Assembly: GCA_938041455.1 (NCBI GenBank)
Contig: CALITO010000033.1
Location: forward strand, 1 to 44,173
Length of the DNA: 44,173 nt
Reading direction: 5' to 3'
DNA from: an uncultured bacterium
GTDB lineage: Bacteria; Armatimonadota; JACIXR01
In this document: in pieces, positions 553 through 44,173 of the stretch
Position numbering within the stretch: the stretch's first letter is position 1
Layout of the letters: every line of letters starts with the position of its first letter
The notes under the pieces: model-generated
The model's database searches: none
Seen by the model: the letters and a program-made list of their open reading frames with translations, nothing else
Told to the model about the DNA's origin: nothing
Position numbers and translations under genes: made by a program

Positions 553-2904
553 GTGAATAAATTTTCAAAAGAAGAAGAAAGACAAATCCTTCTCTTTGCC
601 TCCCTCCTTCACGATATCGGTAAGCTCGTCCAAAGAGCAAACCCCGACCCCTCTCAAAAAACACATAGCCAGTTTGGAGCAGATTGGTTCGCCAATCGCT
701 TCCCCCACGATCTTCTACCTCCCCGCCTCAGACCGCCAATTGAAAGCCTCATCTACAACCATCACAACTCTACCGCCCCTCAATTGGAAAACCTCCATAA
801 AATCCTCCAAGAAGCAGATTACCTCAGCGCAGGTGAACGCCCGGAAAAAGAAGACCCCTATAAGGACGAAAAGGGCAGATGGAGAAACTGGGAAATACCG
901 CTCCGCTCTATCCTCTCCCAGGTCCAATTGGAAGGGAAACCTCCCCCCTCACCCTCCTATTGGAAACTTCAATCCCTAACCTCCTCCTTCACCCACCCCC
1001 TTCCCAGAGATTCCGCCATACCCTCCCAAACTGACTATGAAGAAATCCTCCAAACCCTCAACCAAAATATATCCCCCATCAAAAGCCTTCCCGCCCTGCT
1101 CGCCCTCCTGGAAGAATGCCTTACCTTCGTCCCCTCCGAAACGAGGGAAGTCTTAAAAGATGGCTTGCCCGTCACCGAGAAAGACCCCGATATCTCACTC
1201 TACGACCACTTAAAGCTTACATCCGCCATCGCTCTCTCACTCTACGATGGGGAAGAAAGGGAATTCCTCCTCTTAAGAGGTGATATCTCCGGCGTCCAGA
1301 ATTTCATCTACACCATATCCTCTAAAGGTGCCTTGAAGAGCCTCCGCGCCCGCTCCCTCTATATTGAACTCCTCTCTAACCACATCCCCGCCCTCATCTT
1401 GGAAGAGTTCAAACTCCCTCCCACCAACCTCGTCTTCTGCGGCGGCGCCCACTTCACACTCCTCCTCCCCAATACCCAAAACGCTGAGGAAATCCTCCAG
1501 AAAATGAGAGAAAAGGTCAATGCCTGGCTTTGGGAAAATTTCAGGGGAAAACTATATTTAGCCCTCCAATGGCTACCCCTCTCTAAGGAAGAAATCGTGG
1601 GGAAAGGCCTGGTTCAAAAGCAAGGAGAATTATCATCCCTTATAGAAGAGGAAAAACTTCGCAAATTCGCCCAACTCCCCCACCTCTTCCAACCCCTGGA
1701 AGTGAAGGAGGGAAGATGCAAGGATAATAAAGAACATATTGTCTATGAGTGCGATGTCTGCCGAGCCTCAGCAGATGAGTTTCGCTCGCCTTTAGAAGGA
1801 GAAGAGCACCTTCACCTTTGCCCCTTGTGCTACTCCCTCTTCAAAGTGGGGAGGGACATTCCCAAATTAAAAAATCCCTGCTTCGTTGCTCTCCCCGATG
1901 GTGATATCCCCTTGCCCGGTTCATCCTATAAACTGATGGAGATAAAGGAACTCGAGCCCTGTCTTCCCAAGACGGAGAGGATTTTCGCCCTAAACGCTGA
2001 ACCGAGCTCGCTTCCCTTTCATCCCCATATCTATTTCCTCCCCCTTGCCCGCTATATAAAACGGAATGAAAAGGGGGAAGGCTATGATCTGGAGGAATTT
2101 TCTGAAGCCGCTAAGGGGGCAAAGAGGATTGGCGTTCTCCGTTTGGATGTTGACCATCTGGGCAGGATTTTCAGCAGAGGATTGGGGGAGAATTACTCCT
2201 TCTCCCGCATCGCCACACTATCCCGCTTCCTCACCATCTTCTTCAAAACATATGTGGATGATAGGCTGAAGGATAAAAATGTTGCGGTAATTTACTCGGG
2301 CGGGGATGATGCCTTCATAGTGGGCGCCTGGGACGATGTCCTGGAAAGCGCCTTTGAAATTCAGGAGAAGTTCTCCCAGTTCACCCAAAATCCCTCCTTC
2401 ACTATATCTGCTGGCTACCTGGCCACCCATCCAAAGAGCCCCCTTTATCAACTGGCAGAGAGAAGTGGGAAGTTAGAAGAATCCGCCAAGGAATCGGGAA
2501 GAGATAGCTTCGCTATCTTCCTCTCCAAAAGGGAGGAAAACTTCAGGGAACAATTTCGGAAAGAGCCCACCTGGAATGAGTGCCGTAAGATAAAGGGATG
2601 GAAGGAGGAGATACTGAAGAATTTCGCTCGGGAAAAAGGGACTTTTTATGAGTTGGAGTTGCCTCGCTCCCTTTTATACCGCTTGATGGAGATAAGCAGG
2701 CAATGGCAAAGGGGAGAGAGCATCTATCCCTACATCTATTTGATTTATCTCAAGGGGAAGATGAGGGAAAACTTGAGGAAGATAAAAAAGGAGGACAAAT
2801 GGCCCCAACTCGCCAACATTTTGGGGAAGGATAACATCCCCCATTTCATCCATCTGTTCCATTGGATAGACCCCTTGGTAAGAGAAAAAGGAGGTGAAAG
2901 TTAA
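553..2904 (+). CDS. cas10: Cas10/Csm1, type III-A CRISPR large subunit with HD and GGDD motifs
   Basis: Large subunit of the Csm interference complex. On target RNA binding it degrades ssDNA through its HD domain and makes cyclic oligoadenylate from ATP in its palm domain. The 783-aa product starts at GTG 553 behind GGAGGG (541-546, 6-nt spacing). The HD motif is H20-D21 in LLHDIGK. A palm/Cas10 signature GDISGVQNFIY lies near residues 238-250. A zinc-binding insertion has CxxC at 400/403 and CPLC at 423/426. The cyclase motif YSGGDD is at residues 581-586. Both catalytic centres therefore look intact, which fits the CARF-HEPN effector at the end of the operon. Length is normal for Csm1. csm2 follows directly at the stop codon. 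Confidence 0.96.
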   Translation: MNKFSKEEERQILLFASLLHDIGKLVQRANPDPSQKTHSQFGADWFANRFPHDLLPPRLRPPIESLIYNHHNSTAPQLENLHKILQEADYLSAGERPEKEDPYKDEKGRWRNWEIPLRSILSQVQLEGKPPPSPSYWKLQSLTSSFTHPLPRDSAIPSQTDYEEILQTLNQNISPIKSLPALLALLEECLTFVPSETREVLKDGLPVTEKDPDISLYDHLKLTSAIALSLYDGEEREFLLLRGDISGVQNFIYTISSKGALKSLRARSLYIELLSNHIPALILEEFKLPPTNLVFCGGAHFTLLLPNTQNAEEILQKMREKVNAWLWENFRGKLYLALQWLPLSKEEIVGKGLVQKQGELSSLIEEEKLRKFAQLPHLFQPLEVKEGRCKDNKEHIVYECDVCRASADEFRSPLEGEEHLHLCPLCYSLFKVGRDIPKLKNPCFVALPDGDIPLPGSSYKLMEIKELEPCLPKTERIFALNAEPSSLPFHPHIYFLPLARYIKRNEKGEGYDLEEFSEAAKGAKRIGVLRLDVDHLGRIFSRGLGENYSFSRIATLSRFLTIFFKTYVDDRLKDKNVAVIYSGGDDAFIVGAWDDVLESAFEIQEKFSQFTQNPSFTISAGYLATHPKSPLYQLAERSGKLEESAKESGRDSFAIFLSKREENFREQFRKEPTWNECRKIKGWKEEILKNFAREKGTFYELELPRSLLYRLMEISRQWQRGESIYPYIYLIYLKGKMRENLRKIKKEDKWPQLANILGKDNIPHFIHLFHWIDPLVREKGGES

Positions 2905-3339
2905 ATGAGTTTCCAAGAAAGAAGACCATATAGAGAGGAGCAGAAGGGACCAGGAATTTACGAGAAATGTGGAAACTACATACAACAGCGTGGTAATTTA
3001 AAAGAGGCTGAAATGGAGAAGTTGTTGGAGTTCTTGGAAAAGATAGGAGAGGATTTGGCGAGGGAAGTCAAGATGGCCCAATTGAGGAGGCTTTTAGATG
3101 CTTTTGAGAAACTGAAATCCGCTGTGAGGACGAGAAAAGGGCTGAATATTCGGGAGGAGACGCAAATTTTGAAGATTCACCTTGCTTATGCGGCAGGAAG
3201 AGAAAGAGCTCTCAGACCCCTTGAGAAGCTTTTGGCGTCAGCTATTGACAAAGTTCGGGATGAAGAAGATTTCAAGAGATTATCCCAGTTAATAGAGGGG
3301 TTAATCGCTTATCATAAGTTTTATGGAGGAGGTGATTGA
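2905..3339 (+). CDS. csm2: Csm2, type III-A small subunit
   Basis: Small alpha-helical subunit that lines the crRNA-target duplex in the Csm complex. The 144-aa product is helical and highly charged. It carries the family-typical middle motif HLAYAAGR (around residue 92) and a C-terminal YHKFYGG. ATG 2905 follows the cas10 stop with no gap and has a strong GGAGGTGA at 2890-2897 (7-nt spacing) inside the cas10 end. Presence of Csm2 rather than Cmr5 assigns the locus to subtype III-A. The N-terminal 20 residues are charged and probably flexible. Confidence 0.92.
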   Translation: MSFQERRPYREEQKGPGIYEKCGNYIQQRGNLKEAEMEKLLEFLEKIGEDLAREVKMAQLRRLLDAFEKLKSAVRTRKGLNIREETQILKIHLAYAAGRERALRPLEKLLASAIDKVRDEEDFKRLSQLIEGLIAYHKFYGGGD

Positions 3340-3341
3340 AT

Positions 3342-4109
3342 GTGAAGAATGAAAGGCCCGTTCTCGCTAAAGTGATAATAGAGGGGCAAATGGAGTGCCT
3401 TACCGGGCTCCACATAGGGGCGAGGAGGGAGGCTATGAAGATAGGGGGTATAGACTCGCCGGTTGTGCGCGACCCCATAACGGAGTTCCCCTATGTGCCG
3501 GGAAGTTCCCTAAAAGGCAAGATGCGCTCCCTCTTGGAGCGGAAAATGGGGAAGGAATTCAACCGTGACATAGGTGGCGTCAAAATCCACTCCTGCACGG
3601 ATAGGGAATGCGAGATATGCCGGCTGTTCGGCTCCACCGCGGAGGGGGAAGGGGGTGAGAACATTCCCTCCCGCCTCGCCGTGCGAGACCTATTTCTCAC
3701 AGAGGAAAGCAAGGAGAAACTGGAGGGGATAGAGACAGGGCTCCTCTATACCGAGTGGAAGTTTGAGAACGCCATAGATAGAGTTACCTCCGCCGCCAAC
3801 CCCCGCCAGATAGAGCGAGTGCCAGCGGGCTCAGTCTTCAAACTGGATATAATTTATACAGTGGAGAATATGGAGCATCTGGAAGAGGATTTGAGAAACC
3901 TCCTCTCCGCTATGCGCCTTTTGGAGGACGATTACCTCGGCGGACACGGCTCAAGAGGCTACGGAAAAGTCAAGTTCCAACTCTCCAAAATAGAGTATCG
4001 CAAGAGCGAATGGTATTTAACAGGCAAGGACGAAGATAAAAAGGAATGGAAAGTCCAAAGCATAGATGAGGCAATTGCCAAACTCCAGGAGATAGTGAAA
4101 TTCCAATAA
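3342..4109 (+). CDS. csm3: Csm3, type III-A backbone RNase
   Basis: RAMP-fold backbone subunit that repeats along the crRNA and cuts target RNA every six nucleotides. The GLHIG motif is followed by IGGIDSPVVRDP. The Asp in IGGID (D38 with this start) matches the known catalytic residue position of Csm3. PYVPGSSLKGKMRS then supplies the usual crRNA-contacting loop. I chose GTG 3342 because GGAGGTGA at 3328-3335 sits 6 nt upstream. An in-frame TTG at 3336 directly abuts the Shine-Dalgarno and is less likely. The protein is 255 aa, normal for the family. It has a CxxC-type group (CTDRECEIC) that may bind zinc. The stop overlaps the ATG of csm4 by one base. Confidence 0.95.
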   Translation: MKNERPVLAKVIIEGQMECLTGLHIGARREAMKIGGIDSPVVRDPITEFPYVPGSSLKGKMRSLLERKMGKEFNRDIGGVKIHSCTDRECEICRLFGSTAEGEGGENIPSRLAVRDLFLTEESKEKLEGIETGLLYTEWKFENAIDRVTSAANPRQIERVPAGSVFKLDIIYTVENMEHLEEDLRNLLSAMRLLEDDYLGGHGSRGYGKVKFQLSKIEYRKSEWYLTGKDEDKKEWKVQSIDEAIAKLQEIVKFQ

Positions 4110-5032
4110 TGAAAGAGTTCCTCGTCAAACTAAAACCTATCTCTCCCTTCCACTTAGGAGAGGTGGGGATTGGATTGGAGGGAAGTTTATCCTATGTCCC
4201 CTCCGACCTCCTCTTTTCCTCTCTCGCCAACGCCTATGCCCAACTTTATGGCAAAGGGGAAGTGGAATCTCTCTTAAATTCCTTCCTCTCCTCCCCGCCA
4301 TTCCTCATCTCCTCCGCCTTTCCCTTCTATAAAGAAACTCTCTTCTTCCCTCGCCCCCTCATCCCTCCTAAACTGGAAGATAGGGAGAAATTAAAGGATT
4401 TGAAGAAAAGGAGTTTCCTCCCCTACGGGGTTTTTGAGAAATGGATAAGGGGGGAAGGGCTCCCCTCCCCAGAGGTTGAAGGAGGGGGTTTGCCTAAGAA
4501 GGAACTCCTGCCAAGCGTTGTCCTGGATAGGTCAAATATGCGCTCCCAAATCTATCACCGTTCCGCCCTCTTCTTCCCCAAGGAAGGGGGACTGTTCTTC
4601 CTCCTCCGCCTTTATGAGGAGGGTTTGGAAAAAAAGATAAGGGGAGCTCTCCAATTTCTGGGAGATGTGGGAATAGGAGGAGAGCGTTCCCTGGGTTATG
4701 GACGCTTCAAGGTCTACTCCTTTGAGGAAACTTCCTTACTTCCCCCTCCAACCGATTCCTCCCCTACCCTCACCCTCAGCCTCGTGGTCCCTTCCCTAAA
4801 TGAGGTTGACCTTTCCTCCTCCTACTACCAATTGGTCCTCAGAAGCGGTTGGATTTCCTCCCCCTTCTCTTTCAGACAAACTCGGAGGAAGGCAGTGTGG
4901 ATGCTCGGGGAAGGCTCGGTTTTCCCTAACCCCGTTAGGGGACAACTAATTGAACTAACCCCCCAGGGCTTCCCCCATAAAGTCTATCGCTATGCCCTTG
5001 CCTTTCCCCTGGAGGTGGTGTTGAGTGCTTAA
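4109..5032 (+). CDS. csm4: Csm4, crRNA 5'-handle-binding subunit
   Basis: RAMP protein that caps the 5' handle end of the crRNA and holds Cas10. The 307-aa product begins with the RAMP motif KLKPISPFHLGEVG. It ends its first half with a glycine-rich loop GDVGIGGERSLGYGRF characteristic of Csm4/Cas5-group RAMPs. ATG 4109 overlaps the csm3 stop (TAATG), implying translational coupling. The next gene starts 8 bp before its stop. Identification rests on the RAMP motifs plus position between csm3 and csm5. No catalytic role is expected. Confidence 0.92.
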   Translation: MKEFLVKLKPISPFHLGEVGIGLEGSLSYVPSDLLFSSLANAYAQLYGKGEVESLLNSFLSSPPFLISSAFPFYKETLFFPRPLIPPKLEDREKLKDLKKRSFLPYGVFEKWIRGEGLPSPEVEGGGLPKKELLPSVVLDRSNMRSQIYHRSALFFPKEGGLFFLLRLYEEGLEKKIRGALQFLGDVGIGGERSLGYGRFKVYSFEETSLLPPPTDSSPTLTLSLVVPSLNEVDLSSSYYQLVLRSGWISSPFSFRQTRRKAVWMLGEGSVFPNPVRGQLIELTPQGFPHKVYRYALAFPLEVVLSA

Positions 5033-6146
5033 AGTTCATAAGTTTCGCCTCATCCCCTTATCTCCACTTCACATAGGTGGTAGATTCCAAGCCCTATTCC
5101 CCTTTGAATATATAATTTGGGAGGGGAAACTCATTGTGATAAGGGAGGATGAAGTGGGGAAGCTTCTTCAAAGGGAGGGGCTTTTGAACGACTTCCTCCG
5201 AAGATTCGGAGAATCCGCCTTCTCCCTCACGGACTATCTGAAGGAGAGGAGGCTTCTATCCTCCGAACTTGTGGAGGAACTCACCCTTTACTCCTGCTTG
5301 CTCTCTCCGGGGATATCCCTCAGAGGGGACAAGCGGATTCGTCCCTTCACCAGGGATGCCTATCAGCGACCCTATATTCCGGGAACTGCTATAAAAGGCG
5401 CTATGCGCACCGCATTGTGGTATCACGCAATGAAGTCCGATGACGAATTGAGGGAGAAACGGTTAAAGCAGTTATTAAGAGAGAGGAAGAGAAAGGAAAG
5501 AATTGACGACGAATTGGACAAGGATATTTTTGAAGGATATAGGCTGAGAAATATGGAGAGGTCTCCCAACACCGACATACTGAGGGTTATAAAGGTGGGC
5601 GATGCCCAGCCTTGGGAGAGGGATTCCCTCTATGTGGGGGAGGAGGAGACGCTCGCCAATGACAAACCTCGTCCCGATATCTCCATCTATTTGGAGTATC
5701 AGAAAGAAGAAGAGCAAACATCTTTCAGCCTGACATTTGATGAGGAACTCTTCCAAAAGTTTAAAGAGACGGGAAGAAGGCTTCTATTTGATGGTCTGGA
5801 GGATTTCTTGAAAAAAGTTGATGCTTTTTATAGGGAGGTGGCAAGGGAAGAGGTGGCAAGGGAAGAAGAGAAGAAAGGGGAGAAAGTGAGCAGAGATTTT
5901 TACAGTCGGCTTTTGGAAAAGACAAAAGATGCTGGTTATCTTCTGCGGATAGGCTGGGGAGGTGGGCTTCCCTCCATCACAATTTGGCTCGCTCTCTCCC
6001 AGGAGTTAAGGGAAACGATGAGGAAGGAATTCTTCAAGAAAAGTCGGAGGGATAAGTTCCCTCTGACGAGAAGGTTTCTTAAAAGAAGGGACAAAGAACC
6101 TTATGCTCCCTTCGGTTGGGTGATATTGAAGGAGGTGAAAGGATGA
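5025..6146 (+). CDS. csm5: Csm5, RAMP subunit at the crRNA 3' end
   Basis: RAMP subunit that caps the 3' side of the Csm filament and helps crRNA maturation. The 373-aa product opens with KFRLIPLSPLHIGG and contains YIPGTAIKGAMRTAL near residues 118-132, both typical of Csm5. A lysine/arginine- and glutamate-rich segment (around residues 140-170) and a second charged stretch (around 275-290) look like mobile insertions. GTG 5025 is 6 nt behind GGAGGTGG (5011-5018) and overlaps the csm4 end. The stop overlaps the start of the downstream effector in an ATGA junction. Confidence 0.92.
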   Translation: MLKVHKFRLIPLSPLHIGGRFQALFPFEYIIWEGKLIVIREDEVGKLLQREGLLNDFLRRFGESAFSLTDYLKERRLLSSELVEELTLYSCLLSPGISLRGDKRIRPFTRDAYQRPYIPGTAIKGAMRTALWYHAMKSDDELREKRLKQLLRERKRKERIDDELDKDIFEGYRLRNMERSPNTDILRVIKVGDAQPWERDSLYVGEEETLANDKPRPDISIYLEYQKEEEQTSFSLTFDEELFQKFKETGRRLLFDGLEDFLKKVDAFYREVAREEVAREEEKKGEKVSRDFYSRLLEKTKDAGYLLRIGWGGGLPSITIWLALSQELRETMRKEFFKKSRRDKFPLTRRFLKRRDKEPYAPFGWVILKEVKG

Positions 6147-7423
6147 AAAAAAAGAGAATACTTCTCTTAACCGTGGGAGGAAGCCTTGCCCCCCTCGTCA
6201 CATCAATTAAACAACTTCAGCCTGATTTCGCCACTTTCATTTGTAGTGAGGATACAGAGACCCCAGGGTCATATACACAGATACCCGATATTTTGCAAGA
6301 GGTAGGGGGGATAGAGCACGAGAAAATCTTGGTTTCCCCTGATGGTCCCGAGGATTGTATAGGCAAGATTATGGGTAAAGTAGAGAGCCTCCGTAAGGAA
6401 AACCCCGACGCGGAGATTATGGCGGATTATACCGGGGGAACGAAGACGATGAGCGCCTCCCTTTTCTGGGTTGCTATTCATCAAAATCTGCAACTCTTCC
6501 TCACGACGGGGTTAAGGCGAGACTTAATTGCTGTCGTTGAAGGGGAGACTACTCGCCGCCTCCCCCTTTCCTTCCCCTATTATGAAGAATTGTTAGAGAA
6601 TGTCGATTCGCTGTTGAAAAGGTTTGATTATGCGAGTGCGGGAGAAATGTTCCACTTCGCCCTCGCCAATTATCCCTTCTCCCCCGATGAGGCGAACGAT
6701 TTGCAAAGGAAACTGGAAATCGTAGAGATCTTTAGGCTTTGGGATGTCTATGACCATCTCGGTGCTTTCCGGAGAGCTCAACCTTATAGAAAAGCCCTCT
6801 GGAAGGATTATATGTGCTTTTGGGATAAGGTTATCGGGGATAGGATGAAGATGGAAGAGGATTTCAAGAAGGAAGTTGAGGAGAGGAAAATCAATATAGT
6901 AGCGAAGGATGCCCCCACAAAATACGCTGTAGTGCAAGATTTGCTATTGAATGGGGAGCGCTGTGCTAAAAGGGAAAGATATGACGATGCCACCGCCAGG
7001 CTCTACAGAGCTGTGGAGGTGCTTGCCCAGATAAGATTGTTCACCAAATATGGAATTAACTCGAGCAACCTGGATATAAACAAAATCCCCGAAGATAAAA
7101 GAGAGAAATACGAGAGGAAAAAGGACAGGGAAGGAAAGATCAAGTTAGGTTTATTTGACGATTACGAGCTCCTCTATGATTTTGGGGATGAAGTGGGGAA
7201 GAAATTTAAGGAGGGAGATGTTAGGGGAGCCTTGGAGCGGAGAAATCAAAGCATCCTTGCTCACGGATTCAAGAGCATAAATGGAAAGGATTATAAAAAA
7301 ATAAAAGAAAAGATAGAGGGTTTCATCAAGGGATGTTTGAGAGAATTGTTGGGGGAAAAATATGGGGAGCCTAAGCAGTTGCCGAGTAGTTTGGAAGAGA
7401 TAGAGAAACTATTAGAGGCATAG
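6143..7423 (+). CDS. csm6: Csm6-like CARF-HEPN effector (TIGR02710/Cas02710-type)
   Basis: Predicted cyclic-oligoadenylate-activated RNase. The N-terminal CARF domain starts ILLLTVGGS (residues 6-14) and has the second ligand-binding motif DYTGGTKTM at 95-103. The C-terminal helical domain carries the HEPN catalytic pattern R367-x6-H374 (RNQSILAH). Together these match the TIGR02710 family of Csm6-like proteins. I prefer ATG 6143, which overlaps the csm5 stop as ATGA and follows GGAGGTGA at 6131-6138; this gives 426 aa. An upstream in-frame start at 6116 lies within csm5 and lacks a ribosome binding site. It is the last intact gene of the csm operon. Ring size of the activating nucleotide cannot be told from sequence. 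Confidence 0.88.
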   Translation: MKKKRILLLTVGGSLAPLVTSIKQLQPDFATFICSEDTETPGSYTQIPDILQEVGGIEHEKILVSPDGPEDCIGKIMGKVESLRKENPDAEIMADYTGGTKTMSASLFWVAIHQNLQLFLTTGLRRDLIAVVEGETTRRLPLSFPYYEELLENVDSLLKRFDYASAGEMFHFALANYPFSPDEANDLQRKLEIVEIFRLWDVYDHLGAFRRAQPYRKALWKDYMCFWDKVIGDRMKMEEDFKKEVEERKINIVAKDAPTKYAVVQDLLLNGERCAKRERYDDATARLYRAVEVLAQIRLFTKYGINSSNLDINKIPEDKREKYERKKDREGKIKLGLFDDYELLYDFGDEVGKKFKEGDVRGALERRNQSILAHGFKSINGKDYKKIKEKIEGFIKGCLRELLGEKYGEPKQLPSSLEEIEKLLEA

Positions 7424-23206: not shown

Positions 23207-24496
23207 ATGAAGATAAAGAGAACGCTTCTCCTTTTCTTCTGTTTTTTGATTATTTTGGATTTGACTGGCTGTGTGGAGAGGTTCACCACCTCGCCTTCTC
23301 CGCCTCAAGAGGAGACCCAGCTTCAAGTGTCCCAGATTTCCCCTTCCCAACCTACTCCTTCCCCACCAACCGCTCTGAGAATAGCGATTCTGCCCGAGGA
23401 CCTCGTGGACTACGGGATTTTGAGCGATGCAGCGAATATCTTGAGGGATGCCCTCGGGATAGGTGTGGAGTTCGTCTCCACACAAAACGATTATGACCTC
23501 TATGTAGGAACATCCAGCGAGATATCGACAATGGCACAGCAGGGAACTCTCCAACCCTTACAAGGTATCCTTCCCGAGGTTTCCTCCCCTCTTCTTTCAG
23601 CCTTCAGGGAAGGGGAAAACATATATGCCCTACCTTTGGGAGGGAAAGGGAAACTCCTCCTCATAAATACATCTCTCCTTTTGGAAAATGGACTCCCACC
23701 CCGCGCCCCCGCTACATTTGAGGAATGGGCGAAGATGATGCGCATCCTTAAAGCGAGAGGGGTGAGGTATCCCCTTTTCCTACCTATGGAAGGTGATAGC
23801 CTGCTTGAGAACTTCGAACTCTGGTCGGCCATATATGGCGGGAGCTCCTATTCCCAGGATAAGCCAAGCCTTAGCGACGCCTCAAGACGAGCTCTTATTG
23901 CTCTCTCCGCCCTGGCTAAGGACGACCTCATAGACCCCCTTTCCTATGGTGGAGGAGAAGAAGAAGCCAAGGAGGCGGTGAAGGGGGGAGGCTGTGCCTT
24001 TGCCGTGGTTTGGGGCGATGACCTACCCTCAGGTGTGGAAGTGGGTTTAATCCCTCCCTCACAGGATATATACGATTTAGAGAAAAAGCCCAGCGTATCG
24101 TTGGGAAAAGTGAAGGGGGTGGCGCTGAAAGCGAATTCCCCTTTGACCAAGGAGGCGAAGGCATTCCTAAAATTGGTTTGGCATCTCCAGAAAAAGAATA
24201 ACAGGGATTTGGAGGCATTAGCCCTTTCCTATGCGGTGCCCTGCCCTTCCTTCCGCTCCTACCCTCAGGAGAACGAGGTCGTTAAGAGATTCGTTCTCTC
24301 AACGATACAGGGAATACTCGCTCCCGAAGAAGCGATAAGCAGGGCGCAAGAGGCTCTGAAAGCCATCCCCCAACAAGTTCCTCCCACTCAACCTGCTCAA
24401 CCTCAGATACCCACAAACCAACCCGCTCAACCCCAGATGCCCACAAATCAACCCGCTCCCCCGCCAATGCCAGCAAATATCCCCGTTATTAAATGA
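23207..24496 (+). CDS. Extracellular solute-binding lipoprotein (429 aa) with proline-rich tail
   Basis: Resembles family 1 sugar-binding proteins of ABC importers. A lipoprotein signal peptide ends LDLTGC with Cys22 as the lipidation site, followed by a Ser/Pro/Gln-rich linker. The body shows the usual pattern: YALPLGGKGKLLLINTSLL, FEEWAKMMRILKARGV, then a glycine-rich LSYGGGEEEAKEAVKGGG and late VKGVALKANSPLTKEAKAF. The C-terminus carries three near-identical 10-residue units (QPAQPQxPTN) at 24389-24478, unusual for this family. No permease or ATPase gene is adjacent. It follows the TPR gene by 3 bp, with GAGGTGA 8 nt before its ATG. It could be a sensor or scaffold rather than a transport component. 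Confidence 0.72.
   Translation: MKIKRTLLLFFCFLIILDLTGCVERFTTSPSPPQEETQLQVSQISPSQPTPSPPTALRIAILPEDLVDYGILSDAANILRDALGIGVEFVSTQNDYDLYVGTSSEISTMAQQGTLQPLQGILPEVSSPLLSAFREGENIYALPLGGKGKLLLINTSLLLENGLPPRAPATFEEWAKMMRILKARGVRYPLFLPMEGDSLLENFELWSAIYGGSSYSQDKPSLSDASRRALIALSALAKDDLIDPLSYGGGEEEAKEAVKGGGCAFAVVWGDDLPSGVEVGLIPPSQDIYDLEKKPSVSLGKVKGVALKANSPLTKEAKAFLKLVWHLQKKNNRDLEALALSYAVPCPSFRSYPQENEVVKRFVLSTIQGILAPEEAISRAQEALKAIPQQVPPTQPAQPQIPTNQPAQPQMPTNQPAPPPMPANIPVIK
24389..24478 (+). repeat. Three tandem 30-bp coding repeats (proline-rich tail)
   Basis: Three consecutive 30-bp units encode QPAQPQIPTN, QPAQPQMPTN and QPAPPPMPAN at the C-terminus of the lipoprotein. The third is the most diverged. The unit length keeps the frame, so copy number could vary without loss of the protein. 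Confidence 0.8.
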
Positions 24497-42963: not shown

Positions 42964-44173
42964 CTATCCCACCTCCCGTATCTTTATCGTTGCATCCGAG
43001 CTTCCCGAGGCGAGGAACTTCCCATCGGGAGTGAAGGCAAGGGAAAGCACAGCCCCATCATGCCCCTCAAGTGTCTCAATACAGCTCCAATCCCCAACCC
43101 TCCATATCTTTATCGTTTCATCCTCGCTTCCCGAGGCGAGAAACTTCCCATCGGGAGTGAAGGCAAGGGAAAGCACATCCCATTTATGCCCCTCAAGTGT
43201 CTCAATACAGCTCCAATCCCCTACCCTCCATATCTTTATCGTTTTATCCCAGCTTCCCGAGGCGAGAAACTTCCCATCGGGAGTAAAGGCAAGGGAACGC
43301 ACAAGCCATTCATGCCCCTCAAGTGTCTCAATACAGCTCCAATCCCCTACCCTCCATATCTTTGTCGTTTTATCCTCGCTTCCCGAGGCGAGGAACTTCC
43401 CATCGGGAGTGAAGGCAAGGGAAAGCACACCCTTTTTATGCCCCTTAAGTGTCTCAATACAGCTCCAATCCCCTACCCTCCATATCTTTATCGTTTTATC
43501 ATAGCTTCCCGAGGCGAGGAACTTCCCATCGGGAGTGAAGGCAAGGGAAAGCACCCACCATTTATGCCCCTCAAGTGTCTCAATACATCTCCAATCCCCA
43601 GCCCTCCATATCTTTATCGTTGTATCATCGCTTCCCGAGGCGAGGAACTTCCCATCGGGAGTGAAGGCAAGGGAACGCACCCAATCTTTATGCCCCTCAA
43701 GTGTCTCAATACAGCTCCAATCCCCTACCCTCCATATCTTTATCGTTTTATCATAGCTTCCCGAGGCGAGGAACTTTCCATCGGGAGTAAAGGCAAGGGA
43801 AAGCACATCCCATTTATGCCCCTCAAGTGTCTCAATCTCACTGAGCCGCTTTTGGGGGACTGGGGGAATGGGGACTGGTCTCTCCTTTTGAAGATAGGAG
43901 AGGAAATCCTCCACACTCTGGGGACGCCTCTTAGGGTCCATCTCCATACCAACCATTACCGCCCCAGATAGGAAATCGCTCACCTTGGGATTGAGCTCCT
44001 TTGGGGATGGTAATCTCACACCAGATGCCCTAGCAGGGGCCTCAACCGGTATCTCACCTGTTAGCATATGATAGAGGGTGGCGGAAAGAGCATATATGTC
44101 CGTGTAAGGACCCCTCTCTGCCTGCCGGGAATACTGCTCATTGGGAGCGTAGCCAGGCGTCAGGATAACGGTT
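42964..44173 (-). CDS. Eukaryotic-like Ser/Thr protein kinase with seven WD40 repeats (5' end cut by window)
   Basis: Only the C-terminal part is present; the reading frame runs off the window end. The first visible residues are the kinase activation-segment/APE region TPGYAPNEQY, followed by GPYTDIYALSATLYHMLTG, typical of Hanks-type kinases. After the kinase C-lobe and a linker (PVPIPPVPQK) come seven WD40 repeats of exactly 42 residues, sharing IETLEGH, LAFTPDGKFLASGS and TIKIWRVGDW. They would close one seven-bladed propeller. The last repeat ends IREVG instead of IWRVG. Repeats differ mainly at two or three residues after GH, and at the residues around the Asp of GSxDxT. The ATG at 44067 is internal and not the start. 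Catalytic-loop residues lie outside the window. Signalling or partner recognition is inferred. Confidence 0.9.
   Translation of the reverse strand, partial: TVILTPGYAPNEQYSRQAERGPYTDIYALSATLYHMLTGEIPVEAPARASGVRLPSPKELNPKVSDFLSGAVMVGMEMDPKRRPQSVEDFLSYLQKERPVPIPPVPQKRLSEIETLEGHKWDVLSLAFTPDGKFLASGSYDKTIKIWRVGDWSCIETLEGHKDWVRSLAFTPDGKFLASGSDDTTIKIWRAGDWRCIETLEGHKWWVLSLAFTPDGKFLASGSYDKTIKIWRVGDWSCIETLKGHKKGVLSLAFTPDGKFLASGSEDKTTKIWRVGDWSCIETLEGHEWLVRSLAFTPDGKFLASGSWDKTIKIWRVGDWSCIETLEGHKWDVLSLAFTPDGKFLASGSEDETIKIWRVGDWSCIETLEGHDGAVLSLAFTPDGKFLASGSSDATIKIREVG
42970..43850 (-). repeat. Seven tandem 126-bp WD40-coding repeats
   Basis: The string TGCCCCT(C/T)AA recurs at 43061, 43187, 43313, 43439, 43565, 43691 and 43817, an exact 126-bp period. 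Long stretches, including third codon positions, are identical between copies. This implies recent expansion or ongoing gene conversion. Long open frames on the opposite strand across this array are by-products of the periodicity. Confidence 0.92.

Follow-up and report, generated by a model that had tools for sequence, protein, structure and literature searches.

What are the few differing residues for in a protein whose repeats are otherwise almost copies of one another? The contig analyzed here, C33 (44,173 bp, the whole of which is the window; genome of 2.2 Mb in 50 contigs, 97% complete), raises this question with a gene in which such repeats follow a protein kinase. An earlier note on this DNA had proposed, by analogy with the fungal HET/NWD proteins, that the repeats could form a fast-evolving recognition surface that controls the kinase.

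Kinase, propeller and contig setting

The gene has the following parts, repeats 2 to 7 being assigned from the sequence. For each repeat we give the residues after GH and those around the Asp in GSxDxT.

42964-44172, (-) strand: open reading frame of 402 aa, 5' end open; contig G000:C33 stops at 44173
43885..44172, (-) strand: C-lobe of a Hanks-type protein kinase, truncated by the contig end; starts with an APE-like TPGYAPNEQY
43843..43884, (-) strand: short proline-rich linker, by eye without a membrane segment
43717..43842, (-) strand: WD40 repeat 1 (KWD; Y-D-K), whose first strand serves as the ring-closing strand d
43591..43716, (-) strand: WD40 repeat 2 (KDW; D-D-T)
43465..43590, (-) strand: WD40 repeat 3 (KWW; Y-D-K)
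43339..43464, (-) strand: WD40 repeat 4 (KKG; E-D-K)
43213..43338, (-) strand: WD40 repeat 5 (EWL; W-D-K)
43087..43212, (-) strand: WD40 repeat 6 (KWD; E-D-E)
42964..43086, (-) strand: WD40 repeat 7 (DGA; S-D-A) and stop codon

The interval 42964-44173 named in the earlier note holds the repeats but is not made of repeats throughout, its part from 44172 to 43885 being the kinase C-lobe. This lobe makes up the initial ~96 residues of the ORF, ahead of the linker and the seven WD40 repeats; since it shares one ORF with the propeller, the kinase lies N-terminal to it, as in Hanks-type kinase-WD40 proteins of the PkwA kind. The kinase assignment held. Alone, the C33 C-lobe matched the PF00069 profile weakly (positions 157-203, E 5.7e-4, under the curated cut-off) but was 45-58% identical to the C-lobes of 12 kinases from the same phylum. 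A kinase N-lobe over the PF00069 cut-off lies at the end of another contig (C7:1-483, (-) strand), where it stops at Pfam position 97. Searched with PF00069, the genome yielded four places, a set that leaves out the C33 part.

The kinase stretch missing between these ends is 59 residues long in 15 of 21 two-half kinases used as a yardstick (range 54-64); against the 12 kinases of the phylum it is 58 residues in eight, 59 in two, and 63 and 71 in the remaining two. Because this is the expected length, the C7 and C33 ends are most simply read as parts of a single gene interrupted by some 175 bp, or about 58 residues, of missing sequence. The catalytic loop would sit in this gap, as would the HRD and DFG catalytic motifs, which are present in the relatives L068 and L180. 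Synteny was rejected as a further link: the purC-like and purB-like genes are 134 kb apart in the same-genus genome G001 and on different contigs in G002. As the kinase-WD40 gene was not found in G001 or G002, the fit of the kinase halves is the one thing that ties C7 to C33. The C7 end carries a CxxC...CxxC ribbon (by eye; Pfam gives kinase models only), and if C7 is the other half, the kinase N-terminus would be zinc-ribbon-like. In the N-lobe frame of C7:1-483 (L148), the first listed start, a GTG, falls after the first CxxC of the ribbon; relatives in the phylum keep both CxxC.

The C-terminal parts of kinase relatives in nine stretches from the phylum include WD40 repeats (internal identity 0.20-0.42), hydrophobic segments and others. 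None of the nine has a repetitive propeller, the C-terminal part of L244 being unseen where its contig ends right after the kinase; a repetitive array of nine blades (0.85) does occur in the phylum (L022). In one stretch (L245, G006:C59:111500-125500), kinases or kinase-like proteins stand in a row that all have CxxC N-termini but differ in their C-terminal parts (WD40, hydrophobic segments), a family that seems to swap sensors.

The neighbours seen are an NPCBM-domain protein on C33 and, by eye, an adenylosuccinate-lyase-like gene on C7, and these say nothing about defence. Elsewhere the window has Type III-A CRISPR genes (Csm1/Cas10, Csm3, Csm4, Csm5) with a TIGR02710 CARF protein at 553-7423, and a short tandem repeat of period 30 at 24388-24478, proline-rich in the overlapping ORF 23207-24496. 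For the parts of the gene seen, no NACHT/STAND or HET domain was among the best 25 of 47 matching families. Full-length matches to the PADLOC anti-phage families PD-T4-6, MAD6, PglW and HEAT-ARM_XIII were not found (PADLOC cut-offs are not given). The best match confined to the kinase domain was PD-T4-6 (8e-24 on the C7 part, 2e-9 on C33), MAD6 and PglW matched in the kinase domain only and far under the NCBIfam cut-offs, and the HEAT-ARM_XIII match (5e-29) spans about 120 of 1972 positions, which are the WD40 repeats. A plasmid search with the window protein gave 377 records, every one below 60% identity.

Seven blades and their variable positions

The seven 42-aa repeats span 43842-42964 (-), and this array accounts for all seven places where the genome matched PF00400. 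They are as near-identical as first described, with a pairwise mean identity of 84% (aa) and 90% (nt); TRF found a period of 126, 6.8 copies and a score of 1420. With an internal identity of 0.84, against the 0.7 or more set for highly repetitive (HR) WD40 proteins by Hu 2017, and with diverse hotspot positions, the array sides with that class, as judged by a procedure other than the exact WDSP procedure of Hu 2017 and with a hot set taken from fungal papers.

Three or more residues occur at repeat positions 10, 11, 12, 30 and 32. Position 14 is L or R, position 39 has a single change (V/A in repeat 2), positions 7 and 34 vary in one repeat each, and 1, 2, 37, 38 and 41 vary mainly in the first or last repeat. 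The residues after GH and those flanking the Asp (Y/D/Y/E/W/E/S before it, K/T/K/K/K/E/A after it) are exactly those that the earlier note had listed; it missed positions 14 and 39. The repeats of Podospora HET-D/E are classified by positions 10, 11, 12, 14, 30, 32 and 39 for their high dN/dS (excerpts of PMC12222747), and older fungal work numbers such positions 7, 9, 25 and 27 (excerpts of PMC2873952 and PMC1805685). Within positions 3-36 of the window repeats, all six of the six fungal hot positions are among the eight variable ones (hypergeometric p 2e-5, indicative only), so that the fungal analogy is borne out down to identical positions. We take the older numbers to be 12, 14, 30 and 32 minus five, in a register set by the residues tabulated in those papers and by the HET-E repeat.

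Between repeats, over positions 3-36, hot codons had a pN of 0.453; the framework had a pN of 0.009 and a pS of 0.061. The minimal changes are 22 non-synonymous at hot codons, and two non-synonymous and three synonymous in the framework. When the hot non-synonymous changes are pooled with the synonymous ones in the framework, 22 of the 25 sit at 15 of some 35 sites (p 3e-6); as uncorrected Nei-Gojobori counts on repeats that possibly exchange, these ratios and p values are indicative only. The blades combine a near-fixed framework with non-synonymous change at loop positions far above the framework synonymous rate. A four-gamete test within the array found 24 of 43 site pairs incompatible, as shuffling would predict; the signal can equally be recurrent mutation, because hot codons were hit several times.

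An AlphaFold2 model (eight sequences) has seven closed blades, 28 strands and a pLDDT of 97.6. Its best PDB matches are seven-bladed propellers, with the designed WRAP propellers and PkwA among the closest (PkwA, 5yzv: rmsd 1.0-1.2, 44% identity). In blade 1, the d-a loop holds positions 10-12 and the b-c loop positions 30 and 32; position 14 comes second in strand a, and 39 directly follows the end of strand c. These loops belong to the top face in the description of HET-E (excerpts of PMC1805685), as the d-a loop does in that of PkwA (excerpts of PMC6113231). The earlier note had held that variable residues in the buried core would count against a recognition surface; the hot residues of blade 1 fall within loops or at the edge of a strand, which is a statement about placement and not computed burial. 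They occupy positions that usually touch a partner and likely form a contact surface.

A misassembly was the other objection that the earlier note foresaw: short reads could have garbled a 126-bp tandem repeat, leaving copy number or blade order wrong, or could have wrongly joined, at assembly or binning, kinase and propeller. The contig does end within the gene, and 126-bp repeats are a borderline case for short reads (excerpts of PMC12222747). Yet the seven blades close a propeller, the first and last bear unique ends, the frame is open throughout with C-lobe and propeller in one ORF, the break falls in the kinase outside the repeats, and the missing kinase part has the expected length, all of which makes an artefact improbable.

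Diversification by a retroelement (DGR) that targets hypermutation to the variable codons has a precedent in cyanobacteria, where CLec domains fused to Ser/Thr kinases are diversified in this way (excerpts of PMC7517822). We rejected it as the diversifier, and consider it barely credible here: the reverse transcriptase profile PF00078 had no match in the genome (0 of 1; 97% complete), and the codon changes in the repeats extend beyond adenines.

Hot positions in other genomes

In 150 loci we sought arrays with at least five 42-aa repeats and obtained 68 distinct ones, of which 24, the window's included, had an identity of at least 0.70. The most variable positions in these 24 were 30, 14, 12, 11 and 32. 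In all 24, pN at hot positions exceeded framework pS (ratio 1.2 to 6.1), though the arrays are not independent: 20 are cyanobacterial, three loci contribute two arrays each, and the loci were picked by similarity to the window protein. As read from these sequences, the hot-position pattern is common among repetitive WD40 proteins.

Less repetitive kinase-WD40 proteins behaved differently. In five cyanobacterial groups (26 sequences, orthology by similarity alone; internal identity 0.50-0.62 where listed), hotspot pN (0.020-0.239) was below pS in all five and above framework pN in four; residues differed at 0.04-0.39 of hot and 0.06-0.25 of framework positions. Because hotspots are constrained in these groups, differences between blades alone are not proof of rapid evolution. 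Internal identity places the window gene among the repetitive proteins.

A direct comparison between genomes was possible for L061 of Microcystis aeruginosa NIES-4325, a repetitive kinase-WD40 protein with the domain order of the window gene. When the 12 genomes of its genus were searched, every one gave a match, and eight places spanned the whole query. From fourteen stretches taken, we counted eight seven-bladed sequences from seven genomes (G113 gives two) and left out L183 (irregular register), L191 (irregular), L186 and L187 (five blades), L189 (no open frame with blades) and L190 (split). Amino acid identity among the eight was 0.892 before the propeller and 0.911 in its framework but 0.247 at positions 11, 12, 14, 30 and 32. 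Since this nears the 0.215 found at these positions between different-numbered blades, the hotspots are close to randomised between genomes. Their pN was 0.475, against a framework pS of 0.133. Positions 10 and 39 were conserved (0.945), contrary to the fungal list.

Three control WD40 proteins, analyzed in the same genus by the same procedure, had identities of 0.947, 0.963 and 1.000 at the five hot positions, with frameworks at 0.967-0.975, and so are somewhat less diverged overall than the kinase-WD40. They comprised a 361-aa protein (5 of 8 sequences; L206, L209 and L212 were dropped, with five blades called, not four), a 318-aa protein (5 of 5) and a 1113-aa protein (8 of 8), from genomes that overlap those counted for the kinase-WD40 in sets that are not identical. 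A 132-aa ORF, 97-98% identical to the L179 copy, lies beside the gene in L178, L179, L180 and L188, which are hence probably one locus. These four copies had 0.267 at the hot positions (pairs 0.11-0.40) and 0.934 in the framework; for the remaining four a common locus is not established, L181 and L185 sharing another ORF with L179. The 56 blades contain 48 distinct five-residue cassettes, and five of these recur in other blades or genomes, as expected from shuffling. A kinase-WD40 protein from another genus, with its domains in the same order, thus renews most hot positions from genome to genome and conserves the remainder.

The kinase itself is recognizable in L188 (PF00069, 2.5e-25). L186, L189 and L190 are broken, short or split copies, and the genus also shows one TAA in G105:C161, one TAG in G109 and a split copy in G111. 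By eye, a hydrophobic segment separates kinase from propeller in the Microcystis protein and is absent from the window protein, so that the compartments they sense may differ. A plasmid search with the Microcystis kinase part gave 46 records, none reaching 80% coverage.

Nostoc proteins with 14 repetitive WD40 blades behind a long N-terminal part (L085, L099, L102) were 82-87% identical in that part, among whose domain matches only propeller models stood in the best 25 of 60. At the hot positions the three pairs had 0.21, 0.17 and 0.60, against 0.24, 0.18 and 0.27 for any blade against any other; in two pairs, at 82% N-terminal identity, hotspots were no more alike than random blades. Two genomes of the genus of L068, searched for a replicate of the hotspot test, gave no clear orthologue. 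No alleles of the window gene were found, nor an orthologue in G001 and G002, each of which holds only one short three-blade WD40 protein. The description "fast-evolving" is therefore borne out in the Microcystis analogue, has no alleles to stand on for the window gene, and does not extend to the less repetitive groups.

A possible recognition receptor and its known relatives

With moderate confidence, we regard the window gene as a Hanks-type Ser/Thr kinase controlled by a C-terminal, seven-bladed WD40 propeller that diversifies for recognition. Repeat exchange, by unequal crossing-over or gene conversion, would keep the framework uniform and reshuffle hotspot cassettes, and selection would retain new partner specificities. 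A partner bound by the top face of the propeller could then switch the kinase on or off. This putative partner would be a rapidly changing protein, foreign or self, and defence, kin recognition or insulation of pathways are conceivable purposes. Non-self recognition by the window propeller is a possibility suggested by the fungal analogy.

Alternatively, the propeller may have been amplified recently, as in WRAP and PkwA, and specialised once, each copied blade being fitted to a fixed partner or substrate and the surface now stable. High internal identity and low pS suit recent amplification (Hu 2017; excerpts of PMC9218822), and the constrained hotspots of less repetitive kinase-WD40 groups point the same way. 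The repetitive kinase-WD40 of Microcystis is not stable, however, and at least 22 hotspot changes beside three synonymous framework changes demand strong selection even for a single episode. We consider this account possible but doubtful.

A wider and more tentative proposal is that Hanks-type kinases with homogenised WD40 repeats make up a class of bacterial receptors, hypervariable and HET-like, that have converged on the fungal allorecognition receptors but signal by phosphorylation and are diversified by repeat exchange and not by a retroelement; the window gene would be a non-cyanobacterial member. A kinase that has its likely partner-contact residues near-randomised between relatives, with the remaining sequence conserved, offers a receptor open to testing: it is known which residues vary, the related PkwA has a soluble and stable propeller, and phosphorylation is a simple read-out.

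Several parts of this picture have precedents. Kinase-WD40 fusions, from PkwA and from cyanobacteria, have long been published (PMC2176072; PMC6113231), and rapid turnover has raised the suspicion that repetitive WD40 proteins of bacteria play a part in immunity or self-recognition (excerpts of PMC9218822). The window gene itself thus belongs to a published kind; turnover of hotspots between genomes in a bacterial kinase-WD40 seems new. The literature searched, with most subscription papers lying outside it, gave no report of a hypervariable bacterial kinase-WD40.

The DGR-diversified kinase-CLec proteins of cyanobacteria (excerpts of PMC7517822) join a kinase to a hypervariable binding domain, as proposed here, but have a different fold and a retroelement mechanism, and no retroelement was found for the window gene. 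Cyanobacterial kinases with seven WD40 repeats, cbSTKII (excerpts of PMC2176072), share its combination of Ser/Thr kinase and repeat number. The cyanobacterial kinase-WD40 groups compared above, whose identity with the cbSTKII genes is not established, are unlike it in being less repetitive and constrained at hotspots. PkwA of Thermomonospora curvata (PDB 5yzv) has the same plan of a kinase with a C-terminal, repetitive seven-bladed propeller; its blades are mostly >60% identical (excerpts of PMC6805158), compared with 84% in the window gene, and the parts of the literature examined report no hotspot turnover for it. HR WD40 proteins (Hu et al. 2017, PMC5587647) and WRAP (PMC6805158, PMC9218822) share an internal identity above 0.7 with the window gene, and excerpts of the former already recorded hotspot diversity; between-genome turnover in a kinase, with controls, is absent from the excerpts examined.

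The repeats also resemble those of the fungal receptors HET-D, HET-E and HNWD, which have homogenised 42-aa repeats with the same variable positions as the window gene and a turnover between alleles that the Microcystis analogue matches. The fungal proteins bear HET and NACHT domains and the window protein a kinase instead.
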